Source of the DNA: a virus
Direction: 5' to 3' (one strand)
Length of the DNA stretch: 20,416 bases
Virus record (IMG/VR): IMGVR_UViG_3300043803_002720
Coordinates: 1-20,416 of that record
Numbering within the stretch: the stretch's first letter is position 1; every line of letters begins with the position of its first letter. Position numbers and translations under genes: made by a program. Below the pieces are notes generated by a model that saw only the letters and a program-made list of their open reading frames with translations, was not told the DNA's origin and searched no databases. Below, piece after piece: positions 4,914-16,017 of the stretch.

Positions 4914-6425
4914 ATGAATACAACAGAATTATTCTCAAAATTAACAAAACTAAAAGAACAGAAAAAAGGAGCTAAGAGCTTCCTTCTAAAAAAAGGGTAC
5001 CAGATAAAAGAAGCTGATCGTGTTGTGGAAGTATTCCGGGCAGCTAAGAATGAGAGAGACTTTGAAGCTAAGGTCGATCGTTTTATTGCCGATCTTCCTG
5101 AAGACGAACACAACTGGACAGAGAGTCTAAAGTTTGCTGAAAAGTATGTGTACAATAAAGACGATGATAAATATGTTTTCTATTTGAAGGCAGCTAACGA
5201 TTTTATCGTACTTCCAGGAAATACTGTTCGTGGAATAATTGATAATTACTCTAATTGGTACAAGAGCCCTAGCTCGGTAAATGAAATTTGTAGAAATTAC
5301 CAAATTCCCAAAGCTTATTTCAACGAACTGCGTGAAATTTTAGGCATTACACATAATTCAGAACCTATTACCAAAGAAGAACTTATAACAAAAAACATAG
5401 ACCAATTAGCTGACGATATCTTAGAGAAGAAAAAATTCCAACTCTACCAAAAAGTACAAAAAAAGAGTTGGAAAGACACTGAAGAAGCTGCCAGTAAATG
5501 GTATGATTTTATCGAAGGGTCATTCAATCCGTTTGACTCGCTGTTGAAGTCTTGGGTTCCACCAAAATACGAATCAATCAAACAAATAAACAAAAAGAAA
5601 AAAGTCGGCAATAAAGCTATTGTTGTAGGTTTGTCAGATATCCACTTCGGAACATATGCCAGCCCAGATAGTTCTTTTCGTAACAAAGGGTCTAACACAG
5701 AAGATATTATTAGGAGCATTGAAAAATACTCCAAAGATATTGTGGAATTTTTAGATAATAGAACCTATAACTTTAACGAATGTATTATAACTTCACTGGG
5801 GGATATCTTACATACTACTGGACAGGGATTCACTACCAAAGGGACCTTGTTGAGTCACGACTGTATTAAAGAAGAGCAGTTCAATGCCGCTTTTGATACG
5901 CTGACTAAGTTCGTCAGTAGTATGTTAGAGCTCTTTCCCAAAGTCAAAGTAAAGAGCGTTAAAGGAAATCATAACGACTTTGGAGATTATGTATTATTCC
6001 GTGCTTTGCAGGCATATTTCAGAAAAGAGAAGCGTATTGAATTTGAAGTGTTCCAGTCTGACCACGGGCTATTCAAAGTAAACAACACACTATTCATTAT
6101 TTCTCATGGTTATAGTGCTGAGTATAAAGGGCACCTACCTGCTAACGGGAAAGCTCGTGAAAGCTATATAGCTAATTTATTTCTAGCTAATCCCGAAGCA
6201 CTAATGAATGTAAAATCTAAAGTACTACTCACTGCTGATCAACATCATTGGGAAGCAAAGGAATATGCCGAGTTCGAACACTACATGCTCAGTACTATTG
6301 TAGAGGGGGATAAGTATTCTGAATCGATGGGATTAAACAGCAGAGCAAAACAGAGTTGTTTCATTGTCGATGACGAAGGAATATCTGAAATAATATACAG
6401 CTACGCTGGGGGGAAAAAACAATAA
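4914..6425 (+). CDS. Calcineurin-like metallophosphoesterase with N-terminal extension
   Basis: 503 residues. The C-terminal half carries the ordered metallophosphoesterase motifs: D-I-H (D242, H244), G-D-I (D297), G-N-H-N-D (N352, H353), H398 in S-H-G, and D-Q-H-H (around 442-445). These bind two metal ions in phosphodiesterases and nucleases of the SbcD/Mre11 and lambda-phosphatase type (family knowledge). The first 230 residues are charged; residues near 120-145 (S-V-N-E-I-C-R-N-Y-Q-I-P-K-A-Y-F) look like a helix-turn-helix, suggesting DNA binding. Substrate cannot be read from sequence; a DNA repair, recombination or packaging nuclease is plausible. An A-rich stretch, not a Shine-Dalgarno, precedes ATG. 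Ends 10 bp before a strong terminator. Confidence 0.85.
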   Translation: MNTTELFSKLTKLKEQKKGAKSFLLKKGYQIKEADRVVEVFRAAKNERDFEAKVDRFIADLPEDEHNWTESLKFAEKYVYNKDDDKYVFYLKAANDFIVLPGNTVRGIIDNYSNWYKSPSSVNEICRNYQIPKAYFNELREILGITHNSEPITKEELITKNIDQLADDILEKKKFQLYQKVQKKSWKDTEEAASKWYDFIEGSFNPFDSLLKSWVPPKYESIKQINKKKKVGNKAIVVGLSDIHFGTYASPDSSFRNKGSNTEDIIRSIEKYSKDIVEFLDNRTYNFNECIITSLGDILHTTGQGFTTKGTLLSHDCIKEEQFNAAFDTLTKFVSSMLELFPKVKVKSVKGNHNDFGDYVLFRALQAYFRKEKRIEFEVFQSDHGLFKVNNTLFIISHGYSAEYKGHLPANGKARESYIANLFLANPEALMNVKSKVLLTADQHHWEAKEYAEFEHYMLSTIVEGDKYSESMGLNSRAKQSCFIVDDEGISEIIYSYAGGKKQ

Positions 6426-10107: not shown

Positions 10108-10343
10108 ATATAGATATAAAATCCTCAGAAATAAACAGACTCAAAATGCAGGGAGAAGATCTTGAAGTTTCTATACAACTGATAACGGGATATAAACAAA
10201 TTATCGGTGAGTTATTGAGAACAATTGACTGCTTGTTAATAGCTTTAGAAATAGAGGCAGACTACCCTGGTGAAAGAACTCGCGAAGAAATTTCTAATGC
10301 TAAGGCACTCTATCAAGAGCTTGTTGACATCGGGTATAAATGA
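10104..10343 (+). CDS. 79-aa helical protein, unknown
   Basis: MNIDIKSSEINRLKMQGEDLEVSIQLITGYKQIIGELLRTIDCLLIALEIEADYPGERTREEISNAKAL is predicted helical with heptad-like hydrophobics. Starts by ATGA overlap with the YopX gene. Its last codons contain the -35 box of the promoter for the following RNA. No recognised domain. Confidence 0.65.
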   Translation: MNIDIKSSEINRLKMQGEDLEVSIQLITGYKQIIGELLRTIDCLLIALEIEADYPGERTREEISNAKALYQELVDIGYK

Positions 10344-10351
10344 GTTATTAT
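10324..10351 (+). promoter_or_regulatory. Sigma70-like promoter for the 10358-10959 RNA
   Basis: TTGACA (10324-10329) is a perfect -35; 16 bp later TATTAT (10346-10351), or at 18 bp TTATAC, serves as -10. It lies in the end of the 79-aa gene and points at a stretch with no credible gene for about 700 bp, so the transcript start would be near 10358. Confidence 0.6.
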
Positions 10352-10357
10352 ACATTA

Positions 10358-10867
10358 GCTCTTTGACAAATTGTGCCTCCTCGGCGCAAGAGGTTTCCAG
10401 GTAATGCCTCATCCCAAAAAAACCTGTGTGGGATTGGTTTCGGCCATAAACCGAACAGGTTTAAAGTTTTCGAAGTCTAACTTCCTCTCTATTATTCCTT
10501 TCGTAGAGAGCCCGGCAGAGTCCCTTGTTCGGAGCTTGGGACGGCTAAAAAAACTCCCTTTGGGTTAATCTTGTAAGTAGGAGCCAACTGTCCATTGTGC
10601 GCAACGATGGGTGAGATTAGTCCTGAGACGTCGTGGGTAAACGTCTCGCACTTTTTCGGTGATAGCCTATGTATGCCGAAAAGAACATGTTTCTTTTTCC
10701 TGTTGGTGTGTTGGGGAAACTTGTTCAGCCAGGTGAGTGAAGCTATCAGAACTGTGACCCTGAGCTTATTGTACGACACAGGATATAGACGATGATGGGT
10801 CTGCTCATGCGGACGCTTCGTTGAGTGTGGAACAAAACCCGGGACAAAATCCACAAATACCATTTTC
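10358..10867 (+). ncRNA. Candidate large structured non-coding RNA
   Basis: No credible gene; the frames found here are short, without overlaps or leaders. Instead it is dense in perfect hairpins: 10420-10462 (8 bp outer plus 5 bp inner), 10485-10510 (7 bp), 10520-10542 (5 bp), 10592-10610 (7 bp), 10625-10647 (7 bp), 10653-10682 (7 bp), 10799-10814 (6 bp), 10827-10854 (5 bp). It has its own promoter and ends in a tmRNA-like domain. Large ornate RNAs (GOLLD, ROOL) are known in phages, often beside tRNA genes, and are of this size (family knowledge). I cannot match a primary sequence to them, so the class is open. Total with the 3' domain is about 600 nt. Confidence 0.6.
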
Positions 10868-10959
10868 GGGGGTGAAAGGAATCGAGTGTAATATCACACG
10901 GGTACCGTATGGTATACCTAGATATAAGCATTACGGCGGTTCAAATCCGCCCACCTCCA
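10868..10959 (+). ncRNA. tmRNA-like acceptor/T-arm domain without a message part
   Basis: 5' strand GGGGGTG (10868-10874) pairs fully with CACCTCC (10952-10958), discriminator A10959; no CCA encoded. Next comes AAAGGAATCGAG, similar to the conserved D-like region of tmRNA, and a T arm GGCGG-TTCAAAT-CCGCC (10935-10951). The same acceptor stem, G5-T-G with CACCTCC, is found in bacterial tmRNAs from memory. Between them is only a short arm: GTAAT (10888-10892) with ATTAC (10930-10934) and a hairpin TACC-GTAT-GGTA. There is no anticodon stem and no room for a tag-peptide ORF. Either an RNA-processing and CCA-adding signal for the upstream RNA or a degenerate tmRNA. Confidence 0.6.
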
Positions 10960-10964
10960 TGTAT

Positions 10965-11000
10965 AAATAGCTACAAGTCTGTATAAAAAAAGCTATTTTT
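10965..11000 (+). terminator. Hairpin terminator after the structured RNA
   Basis: AAATAGCT (10965-10972) pairs with AGCTATTT (10991-10998), 18-nt loop, five Ts at the 3' side. AT-rich, so moderately strong at best. Placed 6 nt after the tmRNA-like domain. Confidence 0.5.
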
Positions 11001-11068
11001 AACATTACAAAGTTGTCACGTAAGTTTTGTTTCCCTTAGGCTGAAACATGCTGGTAGAATAGAAGGCT

Positions 11069-11272
11069 ATGAAAACTAACTTCAAATCACCAGAATATCT
11101 CGCTAACACCGGGATTGTATTTGGTCCTTATGGAAGTATTGGATATTACAACACAAATCCGTTAGTGAAAAGAAACTCTATAAAACGAGCCTGTGTGCGT
11201 TTCCGCAAGGCTTGTTCTCCGGAGTTTTTGAAAAAGCTGATGGGTGGTTTCGTAATTGAAAACGCATCATAA
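11069..11272 (+). CDS. 67-aa basic protein, unknown
   Basis: MKTNFKSPEYLANTGIVFGPYGSIGYYNTNPLVKRNSIKRACVRF... is basic and Gly/Tyr-rich, with 'KRACVRFRKACSPEFLKKL' helical at the C-terminus. GAAGG is placed about 6 nt upstream of ATG, one of the better ribosome sites here. A GGTAGAAT box at about 11052 may be its promoter. Stands alone between the RNA and two tRNA genes. No recognised domain. Confidence 0.6.
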   Translation: MKTNFKSPEYLANTGIVFGPYGSIGYYNTNPLVKRNSIKRACVRFRKACSPEFLKKLMGGFVIENAS

Positions 11273-11307
11273 TTGGATTAAAATATTATAAATTATATAC
11301 ATTTTAT

Positions 11308-11380
11308 TGCGGGGTACAATTCCGGCGAATTGGGGTGTCTCATAAGCATCTTTAGGTGGGTTCGACTCCCACCCCCGCTA
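11308..11380 (+). tRNA. tRNA with CAT anticodon, initiator-like features
   Basis: Acceptor 11308-11314 with 11373-11379: six pairs plus a T1-T72 mismatch at the end. D stem CAAT/ATTG with A11-T24, anticodon stem GGTGT/GCATC (two G-T), loop CTCATAA giving CAT, T stem GTGGG/CCCAC with loop TTCGACT, discriminator A11380, no CCA. Unpaired 1-72 and A11-U24 are the hallmarks of initiator tRNA-fMet; the third hallmark, three G-C pairs in the anticodon stem, is absent. Call: initiator-like Met or an odd elongator. Confidence 0.8.
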
Positions 11381-11437
11381 TACACATACACAAATATAGT
11401 GACTGCGGTGTGAACCTTGCGCTATGATTTCGAGTAT

Positions 11438-12604: not shown

Positions 12605-13108
12605 ATGAACAAAGCAGCTAAAATAAAATCCATTATTTCGGGAATCTTTAAAAATATTCCTGCTTATGTGGAAATTTACACCAAGGGAATGAAGGAAGCA
12701 ACCGAACACATGAAAGGATTGATTCCTGTTCCATTCGACACCAATAACGAATTCGATGAATTTATAAAAATTTACATCGACGTTATTTCAGAGGGAATTG
12801 CCGAAAATCGGAAATCTATAGAGCGTATCCTAAAAAGCGAATTGAAAGACCTTCCTCTCAAAGAGCTTGATTTCATTGAGACCGCTATCAACCCCGAAAT
12901 AATCAAGTCTATGACTAGGCTTAATTTTGCTCTGCTTCCCATTATGATGAGAATTGCGATGGGAACCTTGCAGAATGAAGCCTTCATGGAAAAAATGAGC
13001 GGGCTTGTAGAACTTGGTGCTGACTTTGACGTGGCCTCAAAACCCGTTAAAAAATACACCAAGCTCGGTAAAAGCGTAAAAATCAAAACATCTAAACGAA
13101 AGAACTAA
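12605..13108 (+). CDS. 167-aa helical protein, unknown
   Basis: Start chosen at ATG 12605 because GAAAGG sits at proper spacing; the upstream extension from 12548 is probably leader. MNKAAKIKSIISGIFKNIPAYVEIYTKGMKEATEHMKGLI... is all-helical in look, with many Met and Lys, and ends in a basic tail (KLGKSVKIKTSKRKN). A hydrophobic stretch (LLPIMMRIAMGTL) is too short and polar-flanked to call a membrane span. No recognised family. Confidence 0.7.
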   Translation: MNKAAKIKSIISGIFKNIPAYVEIYTKGMKEATEHMKGLIPVPFDTNNEFDEFIKIYIDVISEGIAENRKSIERILKSELKDLPLKELDFIETAINPEIIKSMTRLNFALLPIMMRIAMGTLQNEAFMEKMSGLVELGADFDVASKPVKKYTKLGKSVKIKTSKRKN

Positions 13109-13300: not shown

Positions 13301-13399
13301 TTTGAATAGATAGCACACGAATTTTAAAGTGTTATTCGTGGCGGCTTCAACTGAGCTAGCTATCATTCAAACTCCCTGCTCCATGTGGATGTCAGGGAG
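13301..13399 (+). ncRNA. Compact structured RNA upstream of the SUMF1-like gene
   Basis: A 13-bp closing stem with one bulged A (13301-13314 with 13359-13371) holds a 7-bp hairpin CACGAAT/ATTCGTG (13316-13322/13334-13340) and a small GCT/AGC hairpin, forming a three-way junction. It is followed directly by a 7-bp hairpin CTCCCTG/CAGGGAG (13372-13378/13393-13399). No ORF fits here. It lies 90 nt before the ATG at 13489, so a 5' UTR element or small RNA. No known riboswitch class is recognised. Confidence 0.55.
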
Positions 13400-13488
13400 G
13401 CTTAATGCAGCCAGTGGCAATGTTTGTCGCTGATGGTCACAAGCCCATAAAATGCAGAGTGAGCAACCACAACAATAATACACAACAC

Positions 13489-14544
13489 ATGAAAAAATTA
13501 ATATATTTGTTTTTCTTGGCAATTACAGAATTTGCCGTAGGAGAAATAAACATTGAAACAGTTGTAATTGAAAACAGCGGGAACAGTGCAGATGTCCGCT
13601 CAGGAATGGGTGGAGTTTCTCACCGTTACGCTATAGGAAAATACGAAGTTACTGTTAAACAATACGCAGAGTTTTTAAATTCTATAGCAACAACCAACAC
13701 GGATAGTTGGATAGTTAACCTCTGGAATCCTGAAATGCAGTCGAACCCTAATATTGCAGGAATTGCACGAACTGGAAATGGAACAGCTGCAAATCCGTAT
13801 ATATACACTACTATAGGTGACGATACTCGACCTATAGCTTGTGTAAGTTGGTTTGATGCGGCGCGTTTTTGTAATTGGATGCATAACGGAGGAAACATTA
13901 ATTCAAGTACCGAAACAGGTGCCTATAATTTAAACGGAGCCACTACATCAGTTGTAGCTAAAAATTCCAATGCTAAATGGTATATACCTACTGAAAATGA
14001 GTGGTATAAGTCCGCCTTCAATAAACGCGAAGGTGGGTATTGGCGTTTTGCAAGTCAGAGAGACACAACTCCTGGTGCAGTTAATTATAGATACTCTGGC
14101 GGAAACACAGTATTTTATGCAGCCACAGGATCATCAGCATGGGCTCCCGTAAGCTATATTATGCCTGTGGGAACCTTTGGAAGTCAAAGTAGTTGGGGCA
14201 CCCTCGACCAAAGCGGTAATCTAAACGAATGGGTAGATACACCCAATGGACCTGCTATACGAGGAGGCTCATGGTTTGACCATGATGAAAAGAGGTTAAG
14301 TATATATGGCAGTATCTCAGAGCAGGGCTACAATGAAAATATTTATACAGGTTTTCGTGTAGCTAAAAGTTCTGCTCCCGAGCCCGCTAATGGAATACTT
14401 ACACTCGAAGTGAGTAATGGTATTTCTTCAGGCTGGACAGAGATCAAACTCGACGCATCCATGATAACTCCAGAAGGTAAAATTAATATTGGTACCCTAA
14501 CTAGTGATGCTGAGTTTTACCGGTTAAAAGTTGAAGCAAAATAA
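13489..14544 (+). CDS. Exported SUMF1/FGE-sulfatase fold protein (catalytic Cys absent)
   Basis: 351 residues. Start moved to ATG 13489 because MKKLIYLFFLAITEFAVG is a signal peptide and the leader ACCACAACAATA precedes it. Domain layout is the SUMF1 (formylglycine-generating enzyme/C-type lectin-like) fold: Y-A-I-G-K-Y-E-V-T-V-K-Q-Y-A-E-F-L-N, 'ACVSWFDAARFCNWM', W-Y-I-P-T-E-N-E-W-Y-K-S-A, G-T-L-D-Q-S-G-N-L-N-E-W-V, and A-I-R-G-G-S-W. True FGE has catalytic cysteines after G-G-S-F/W; here it reads S-W-F-D-H-D-E, so no FGE activity. The C-terminus (I-T-P-E-G-K-I-N-I-G ... F-Y-R-L-K-V) is like exported proteins of Verrucomicrobia and Planctomycetes. Likely a binding protein displayed outside the cell or on the virion. 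Confidence 0.85.
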   Translation: MKKLIYLFFLAITEFAVGEINIETVVIENSGNSADVRSGMGGVSHRYAIGKYEVTVKQYAEFLNSIATTNTDSWIVNLWNPEMQSNPNIAGIARTGNGTAANPYIYTTIGDDTRPIACVSWFDAARFCNWMHNGGNINSSTETGAYNLNGATTSVVAKNSNAKWYIPTENEWYKSAFNKREGGYWRFASQRDTTPGAVNYRYSGGNTVFYAATGSSAWAPVSYIMPVGTFGSQSSWGTLDQSGNLNEWVDTPNGPAIRGGSWFDHDEKRLSIYGSISEQGYNENIYTGFRVAKSSAPEPANGILTLEVSNGISSGWTEIKLDASMITPEGKINIGTLTSDAEFYRLKVEAK

Positions 14545-14943: not shown

Positions 14944-16017
14944 ATGCCTGAAACAATAGACAAGATGAAACAGGCTTCCGACATGCTGCTCAAGGCAGCG
15001 GTGAAGGGAGTCTACGACCTCCAAAAACTCCGTGTTAGCATGGGGAATCGCCTGGTAGCACAATTCAAAGTTAAACTTGGTTATGTCCCTGGAACCAAGG
15101 AGGAAGACACGTTGGACGAGGAGGCAACCGAAACCCTCGACAATATCCGTTCTAGCTATAAAAAGCTTACGGATGGTATCAAGAAAGAGCTTCCTGCTAA
15201 AAAGCAGTTTAAGGCCGAGGGTATCATCCACGAATATGCTGAATTGGTGATGGTTCACCAATACATGTCGATGGAACGTCAGGAGGAGAGTCTCTTTCGC
15301 AAGATCGAGGATCTCCTGGAAGATCATCCGCTCTGGACCTCATTCCTCTCCCCAATCAGAGGATGTGGACCTGCCTTGGGTGCAGCAATCATCGCCAGCA
15401 TCGACATCACCAAAGCCGAATACCCCAGCTCGCTCTGGAAATATTGCGGCTTTGATGTAGTGCACGTTGGTCGCCAAGGAAAGAAGGGAATCGTTTCTAC
15501 CAACTTGAGAGAGGTGGAAGATTTCGATGCACTTATGGAGGACAAAACTACTGTTTCTCTCGTCAACCGCAACGACTTTAAAAAGTTGGGTGTGTTGACT
15601 ACTGGAGACATGGAATGGTCTTCTGAGGGGCGCAGAAAGAGGATGGACCACATGGTGGACCGTTGCCTCCTGAATCAGGACGGTGAGGTGGTGAAGACTT
15701 GGAAGAGCCTTCCCTACAACCCCTGGTTAAAGAGTCGTCTCTGGCTTCTCGGTAATAGCTTTCTCCGTTGCGGGAACGCGCATTACAGAGAAGTCTACGA
15801 GAACAGGAAGAATCGTTCCCTGAACCACCCCAAGTGGCAGAACGAATCCAAGAAACATATTCATGATGACGCACTCCGTTACATGATCAAGCGCTTCCTG
15901 GTAGACCTCTACAAGGCCTGGCGTCCTTTGGAAGGTCTCCCTGTTGCCCCTGAGTATTCAGAGGCAAAGCTGGGACTCAAGCACAAGAGTGCCCAGAAAT
16001 ACGCCCAAGCAGCCTAA
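14944..16017 (+). CDS. tasA: Tas-like protein (IS110/Nop-type domain), TIGR-Tas effector candidate
   Basis: 357 residues. Residues 1-130 are helical with no D-x-x-x-K/DEDD RuvC motifs as in IS110 transposases. Residues 138-170 (I-R-G-C-G-P-A-L-G-A-A-I-I-A-S-I-D ... S-S-L-W-K-Y-C-G-F) match the C-terminal Transposase_20/Nop-related region, followed by G-R-Q-G-K-K-G-I; 253-262 (W-K-S-L-P-Y-N-P-W-L) and the helix near 305-327 (H-I-H-D-D-A-L-R-Y-M) complete it. The catalytic Ser expected in IS110 is not seen, nor any HNH motif. The next 113 bp lead to an array of 36-bp units, the partner expected for Tas proteins of TIGR-Tas systems (family knowledge, recalled, not checked). GC content is visibly higher than in the neighbours, suggesting recent transfer. 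Main alternative: an IS110-like relic. The symbol tasA is provisional. Confidence 0.78.
   Translation: MPETIDKMKQASDMLLKAAVKGVYDLQKLRVSMGNRLVAQFKVKLGYVPGTKEEDTLDEEATETLDNIRSSYKKLTDGIKKELPAKKQFKAEGIIHEYAELVMVHQYMSMERQEESLFRKIEDLLEDHPLWTSFLSPIRGCGPALGAAIIASIDITKAEYPSSLWKYCGFDVVHVGRQGKKGIVSTNLREVEDFDALMEDKTTVSLVNRNDFKKLGVLTTGDMEWSSEGRRKRMDHMVDRCLLNQDGEVVKTWKSLPYNPWLKSRLWLLGNSFLRCGNAHYREVYENRKNRSLNHPKWQNESKKHIHDDALRYMIKRFLVDLYKAWRPLEGLPVAPEYSEAKLGLKHKSAQKYAQAA

Follow-up and report, generated by a model that had tools for sequence, protein, structure and literature searches.

A message-less tmRNA-like element in a viral DNA fragment and a common viral family of mini-tmRNAs with a near-invariant alanine identity

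We describe a 92-nt element that is almost certainly a transfer-messenger RNA (tmRNA) reduced to its tRNA-like domain (TLD) and that, judging from its sequence, is an outlying member of a common viral family of such mini-tmRNAs, in which the determinants of alanine identity are kept. The element was read at positions 10868-10959, on the plus strand, of a 20.4-kb virus record that is itself a fragment (IMG/VR record IMGVR_UViG_3300043803_002720, positions 1 to 20,416; this whole stretch of 20,416 nucleotides is called the window below). A preliminary description made from the letters alone had proposed a tmRNA-like domain with neither message nor anticodon at this place, and this was borne out, as the Rfam tmRNA model RF00023 matches both ends and no tag frame fits the arm between them. 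The ends that it had delimited (acceptor stem, D-like stretch and perfect T arm) were exact to the pair, and the short arm said to replace the long P2 and the coding part is present and probably of P2 type. The parts of the element are as follows.

10868-10959, plus strand: mini-tmRNA, a tmRNA TLD with a short P2-type arm and without a message (RF00023 and covariance model R1, described below)
10868-10874, plus strand: 5′ strand of the acceptor stem, GGGGGUG, with G3 paired to U70 (sequence; 7/7 pairs)
10875-10885, plus strand: D-like stretch AAAGGAAUCGA, lacking a D stem as in tmRNA (sequence; aligned to the tmRNA model)
10886-10895, plus strand: 5′ strand of the P2-type arm, GUGU-A-AUAUC (suboptimal fold of −31.5 kcal/mol, in the family register)
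10900-10918, plus strand: terminal hairpin of the arm (GGGUACCGUAUGGUAUACC), without the usual AAAGCC...GG tip (fold; family consensus)
10921-10931, plus strand: 3′ strand of the P2-type arm, GAUAU-AA-GCAU (suboptimal fold)
10932-10934, plus strand: 3-nt linker UAC from P2 to the T arm (UAC also found in family loci L015, L028, L034, L048 and L050)
10935-10951, plus strand: T arm, GGCGG-UUCAAAU-CCGCC (sequence; 5/5 pairs)
10952-10959, plus strand: 3′ strand of the acceptor stem, CACCUCC (10952-10958), and discriminator A73 (10959); CCA is not encoded (sequence)

All 12 pairs of the acceptor and T-arm stems are intact, the strands follow each other in the standard, non-permuted order, and the D-like motif of the TLD reads GGAAUCGA in summary form. 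The element has G·U at 3-70 and an A discriminator; the preliminary description, which had held a missing G3-U70 against charging by alanyl-tRNA synthetase (AlaRS), contradicted itself on this point. Only 49 nt, arm and linker together, separate the D-like stretch from the T arm, and therefore leave no place for a resume codon, a tag frame or pseudoknots. The window contains a single instance of the TLD signature (7-bp acceptor, GGNNTCGA, 5-bp T stem), which none of 300 first-order resamples of it reproduced, and the minimum fold of the element (−32.3 kcal/mol, z −3.04) was equalled by none of 200 shuffles.

The Infernal search proposed in the preliminary description gave a cmscan match of RF00023 to both ends of the element, spanning model positions 1-374 but skipping the middle (42.0 bits, E = 2.7e-15 in 741 bases searched), yet under the curated gathering cut-off of 47. 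RF00023 was the sole family reported for positions 10330-11070 at E up to 10. A tag piece elsewhere, which would have spoken against a message-less RNA, was looked for in the same scan, and no permuted tmRNA partner was found. We also looked for the better-fitting tRNA model that the preliminary description had raised as a counter-case. ARAGORN called six tRNAs in the window but none at 10868-10959, and R1, a covariance model trained on 30 family members with the window sequence excluded, scored the element at 45.1 bits (E = 1.2e-9), while the highest-scoring true tRNA of the window reached 27.8 bits. A tRNA was rejected on these grounds, there being no D stem, no anticodon arm, no ARAGORN call and no reported family other than tmRNA. 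A standard tmRNA was rejected for its score below the cut-off and for the missing resume codon, tag frame and pseudoknots, and a permuted two-piece tmRNA by the cmscan of 10330-11070, the same detector finding the one of Stenotrophomonas phage BUCTxx99. A search with the whole 717-nt region against 50,697 phage records revealed no direct homologue; with the mini-tmRNA as blastn query, phages gave only short, mostly tRNA-like 3′ fragments and plasmids gave none.

Pattern searches placed the element within a family. Pattern A, which combined a GGGG acceptor start, the D-like core and the T loop at a spacing of 37-67 nt, found 52 stretches in viral contigs, 49 of them with all seven acceptor pairs (set A); L008 and L020 were dropped as chance matches with a tRNA downstream, and L006 is cut by the end of its stretch. 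Pattern B left the acceptor unconstrained and found at least 120 stretches at no fewer than 116 new loci. At least six of seven acceptor pairs and four of five T-stem pairs were present at 103 of 116 new loci among the matches listed (set B); the 13 dropped include L215 and L218, which appear to be genuine members aligned out of register. Together the two patterns yielded at least 152 viral-contig loci of the same architecture, to which a third search, based on the D-loop and one form of the arm tip only, added 22: of its 36 stretches, 14 had been found before, and the T arm, acceptor, G3·U70 and A73 were present in 36/36. Because D-loop and T-loop letters are written into patterns A and B, they carry no information about conservation, whereas what was found for P2, the tip and the set-B acceptor does not depend on what the patterns required. 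Pattern A was also run on a bacterial and archaeal collection of 84,980 species, where just 3 of 10 stretches were real (L245, L247 and L248) and seven were due to chance, suggesting that the form is mainly viral; of ten proteins around these three loci, three had a PHROGs match, none to a structural family. A tRNA lies less than 1 kb from 28 of 113 mini-tmRNAs, compared to 9.9% of random positions, a modest preference and no rule. A 68-nt element of Vibrio phage D239 (locus L264, 2471-2538) reaches 41 bits with the mini-tmRNA model despite an altered D-like region, and is possibly a further shrunken form.

The alanine identity is nearly invariant in this family. G3·U70 was found in 49/49 members of set A and in 102/103 of set B, that is, in 151/152 combined among the matches listed, and A73 in 47/49 (U73 in the other two) and 103/103, respectively. 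Set B contains 81 unique sequences; G-C occupies pair 1-72 in all 81 and pair 2-71 in 80, and G·U occupies 3-70 in 80, whereas pairs 4-69, 5-68 and 6-67 show five, six and four pair types, respectively. As far as sequences can tell, the G3·U70 wobble is thus maintained while neighbouring acceptor pairs vary. P2 is likewise held by pairing: with a 3-nt linker, its first seven positions pair in 92.6% of cells across 95 non-redundant members, compared to 33-49% in controls with linkers of 0-2 and 4-6 nt, and in 91.8% when 35 members of set A are taken alone. Six of the seven positions show six pair types, so that the sequence is free and the pairing kept. In most members a short hairpin closes the arm; its consensus, read by eye, resembles AAAGCC-N-CANG-N-GG. 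This tip is usual, not universal, and the longer members L015, L030, L039, L047 and L050, like the longer-armed window copy, depart from it.

We then considered what else the carriers encode, using 42 records with contigs of at least 20 kb drawn from the matches listed, most of them fragments. All 42 gave a short tmRNA match and none a full-length tmRNA, secondary matches at E of 1e-10 or better being tRNA-sized and at most 31.2 bits; SmpB was found in 0/42. Seven carriers are cultured phages deposited as complete genomes (Streptomyces phages LuckySocke, GiJojo, pSt2308, BRock and Alone3, Stenotrophomonas virus Jojan60 and Pontimonas phage phiPsal1). Each has one mini-tmRNA, labelled tmRNA in none of their annotation tables, and among these seven there was no full-length tmRNA and no SmpB (0/7). 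For the carriers searched, these counts rule out a mini-tmRNA that works alongside an SmpB encoded by the phage or an additional full tmRNA. In one of the 42 records (G045, locus L030), a weak partial match to the permuted tmRNA (35 bits) overlaps the mini-tmRNA.

The window's own relatives present another picture. Through the exonuclease-like open reading frame (ORF) at 4914-6425 (PHROGs) we collected 36 related loci, and 10 of the 36 records contain a full-length tmRNA, including all seven longer than 125 kb. No mini-tmRNA was found in the 36, their three matches being tRNA-sized and no higher than 29.1 bits. An ancestral tmRNA may have been exchanged or cut down in the window's phage, but the two genes lie at different places, and what the window shows is a fragment. 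In nine of the ten full-length tmRNAs of these relatives (L093-L102), ARAGORN predicts a tag of about 30-31 amino acids, and in L098 one of 11; the most frequent tag length in the literature is 10.

How might such an RNA act? RNase P cuts tRNA-like ends and CCA is added to them, G3·U70 is the main identity element for AlaRS, and SmpB and EF-Tu bind the TLD and deliver it to stalled ribosomes. We consider it rather probable that the element is a phage-encoded, message-less tmRNA which is charged with alanine and competes with the host tmRNA for SmpB, EF-Tu and stalled ribosomes. Once expressed, the mini-tmRNA would be excised from its transcript by host tRNA-processing enzymes and receive its CCA, host AlaRS would charge it through G3·U70, and the charged molecule would bind host SmpB and EF-Tu and vie with host tmRNA for stalled ribosomes, so that trans-translation would be blunted or redirected during infection. 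Having neither resume codon nor tag frame, it could not complete tagging. In favour of such competition, a DS6A-type "TLD only" tmRNA is reported to inhibit E. coli tmRNA (PMC11915505; Lau and Williams 2014, PMC4131195), perhaps by titrating SmpB (PMC4131195). The presence of G3·U70 in all but one of the listed loci suggests that charging matters, and pure titration would let G3·U70 and A73 drift, which favours a charged competitor acting on the ribosome. A further-reaching form of this proposal, which we advance tentatively and would not bet on, is that message-less tmRNAs are a common phage tool selected for alanine charging, in which the conserved tip would have a partner of its own and the RNA, no passive sponge, would accept the nascent chain on the ribosome without tagging it, tilting the outcome of rescue towards the phage.

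Several observations weigh against placing the window element in this family and giving it this role. Its RF00023 score falls short of the curated cut-off, and with R1 the window copy reaches 45 bits compared to 51-75 in the seven cultured phage members, a sign of divergence. The minimum-energy fold places the arm unlike that of tmRNA; the family register appears in the third structure listed, 0.8 kcal/mol above the minimum and with an internal loop after four pairs, where a family-type P2 begins directly after UCGA and ends 3 nt (UAC) short of the T stem. The tip of the window arm is GGUACCGUAUGGUAUACC in place of the usual motif, again a mark of divergence, and because the copy is alone in its near lineage (0/36) its own conservation is not measurable. 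Finally, a similar molecule is reported to inhibit tmRNA "whether or not chargeable" (PMC4131195), from which it follows that inhibition alone leaves the kept G3·U70 unexplained.

Upstream of the mini-tmRNA, the window contains two features that bear on its transcript.

10324-10351, plus strand: promoter-like TTGACA-N16-TATTAT (11/12), the nearest upstream candidate for the mini-tmRNA transcript
10344-10867, plus strand: noncoding stretch of about 520 nt, called RNA X, whose 3′ part matches positions 12488-12574 of L060 (77% over 90 nt)

Three promoter-like sites were found in the region against a shuffle mean of 2.3, which is suggestive only. RNA X matches no Rfam family at E up to 10 and is a candidate for an unknown phage RNA; it is probably on one transcript with the mini-tmRNA in the window. 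No mini-tmRNA follows the L060 copy of its 3′ part, indicating that RNA X is a separate element. A pattern search for further relatives returned the L060 contig again (L253) and two chance-like stretches (L254 and L255). Farther downstream, an odd tRNA-Met(CAT) at 11307-11381 (plus strand), for which Rfam favours its tRNA-Sec model (32.7 bits), is conserved in L060 at 12642-12716 (plus strand). A match to the type-P1 twister ribozyme at 13399-13465 (plus strand; 59.3 bits, E = 2.6e-11, cut-off 67.2) overlaps the start region of an ORF with an FGE-sulfatase domain (13405-14544), and the ORF at 14944-16017 (plus strand), downstream of the tRNA and RNA region, matches the PHROGs "transposase" family (E = 2.4e-39).

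Other readings were weighed against that of a charged competitor. The mini-tmRNA might instead serve tag-less rescue, in which alanyl-mini-tmRNA and SmpB would remove the nascent chain and help to free the ribosome with no degradation tag attached, so that ribosomes and truncated phage proteins would stay usable. Such a role would account for the almost constant G3·U70 and A73, neither of which a pure sponge needs, and a mitochondrial tmRNA without a tag frame is suggested, in part of the database paper, to still help with incomplete mRNAs (PMC11915505). The element encodes neither a stop codon nor a route of release, however, and the sole experiment named in the literature passages reports inhibition of tmRNA; we regard tag-less rescue as unlikely, though the most serious of the alternatives. 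A plain sponge for SmpB (or for AlaRS or EF-Tu), acting by titration with charging irrelevant, is less probable still. The preliminary description had suggested a decoy of this sort, and that suggestion fits the published behaviour of the DS6A type as well as the lack of an SmpB of their own in the carriers searched. It is incomplete in that it leaves the strict G3·U70 amid varying neighbour pairs unexplained.

Two readings that we consider very improbable, to about the same degree, would deprive the TLD of any tmRNA-related activity. In one, the TLD is solely a landing pad for RNase P that trims or finishes the 3′ end of the noncoding RNA before it, as the preliminary description had also proposed (RNase P cutting and CCA addition to the upstream RNA). 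The window TLD does lie directly behind a promoter-led noncoding stretch of about 500 nt, where such tagging is possible as a side effect. It cannot be the general role, since related elements are flanked by protein genes or belong to tRNA arrays, with no RNA of this sort, and since L060 retains the 3′ part of the upstream element without a TLD; moreover, a plain tRNA would suffice and the tmRNA features would be unneeded. In the other, the element is a functionless relic, either what a deletion of the middle left of a full-length tmRNA or a copy of host ssrA made at an attachment site. The full-length tmRNAs in the relatives' records suggest that an ancestor may once have possessed one, and the window copy is divergent. 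Against decay stand the fully paired acceptor and T-arm stems and the recurrence of the short form, with a covarying P2, in unrelated phages; attachment-site copies of ssrA, for their part, are known to duplicate the 3′ part only.

Almost all bacteria perform trans-translation, some cannot live without it, and to our knowledge phage responses to it have been little studied. Members in cultured Streptomyces, Stenotrophomonas and Pontimonas phages make the family open to laboratory testing, and a near-invariant alanine identity amid otherwise free acceptor pairs poses the question of whether these RNAs are sponges or active substrates.

Among known systems, the element shares the acceptor, D-like region, T arm, G3·U70 and A73 with standard tmRNA (RF00023), and differs from it in length (92 nt against 374 model positions) and in lacking the pseudoknots, resume codon, tag frame and long P2. 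The permuted two-piece tmRNA (RF04321), matched at 100 bits in phage BUCTxx99, is also phage-carried and has a short acceptor part; in it, the 5′ acceptor strand comes after the T arm and the 3′ strand, whereas the window element has the standard order and no coding piece nearby. The permuted layout occurs at L125/L126, in BUCTxx99 and, by eye, in Synechococcus phage S-CRM01, without annotation in the tables. The closest likeness by description, rather than by P2 arm or tip sequence, is with the "TLD only" form of mycobacteriophage DS6A, for which Mao et al. (2009) is said to be the original paper. It too is phage-borne and non-permuted, with little beyond the TLD and no tag frame, and the published account, as far as its passages go, names this one phage only. 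Message-less organellar tmRNAs (those of mitochondria and the ~65-bp plastid genes of Mallomonadaceae) have likewise kept the TLD and lost the tag frame, but they are organelle-borne and the mitochondrial ones usually permuted, according to sections of the database paper (PMC11915505). HMP2_734, an 84-bp candidate structured RNA from the human microbiome, is called "a novel tmRNA" in an excerpt of its report, which reads a tag peptide in it (PMC8040213); it resembles the element in length and tmRNA-like identity by description alone, and may, as a lead only, be a mini-tmRNA of this kind taken as coding.

The same sections of the 2025 database count 9 "standard, no CDS" entries among 97,179 and 79 phage tmRNAs of all forms, and the TLD-only kind in print amounts to one phage, two plastid sequences, organelles and few others (PMC11915505). 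We found no description of a widespread phage family of message-less tmRNAs in the open-licence literature searched. Set beside those nine entries, at least 152 viral loci and 22 more make this a common family and not the oddity of one phage. The TLD-only kind was thus already known; what appears to be new is a common viral family of it, whose P2 covaries and whose tip and alanine identity are conserved.
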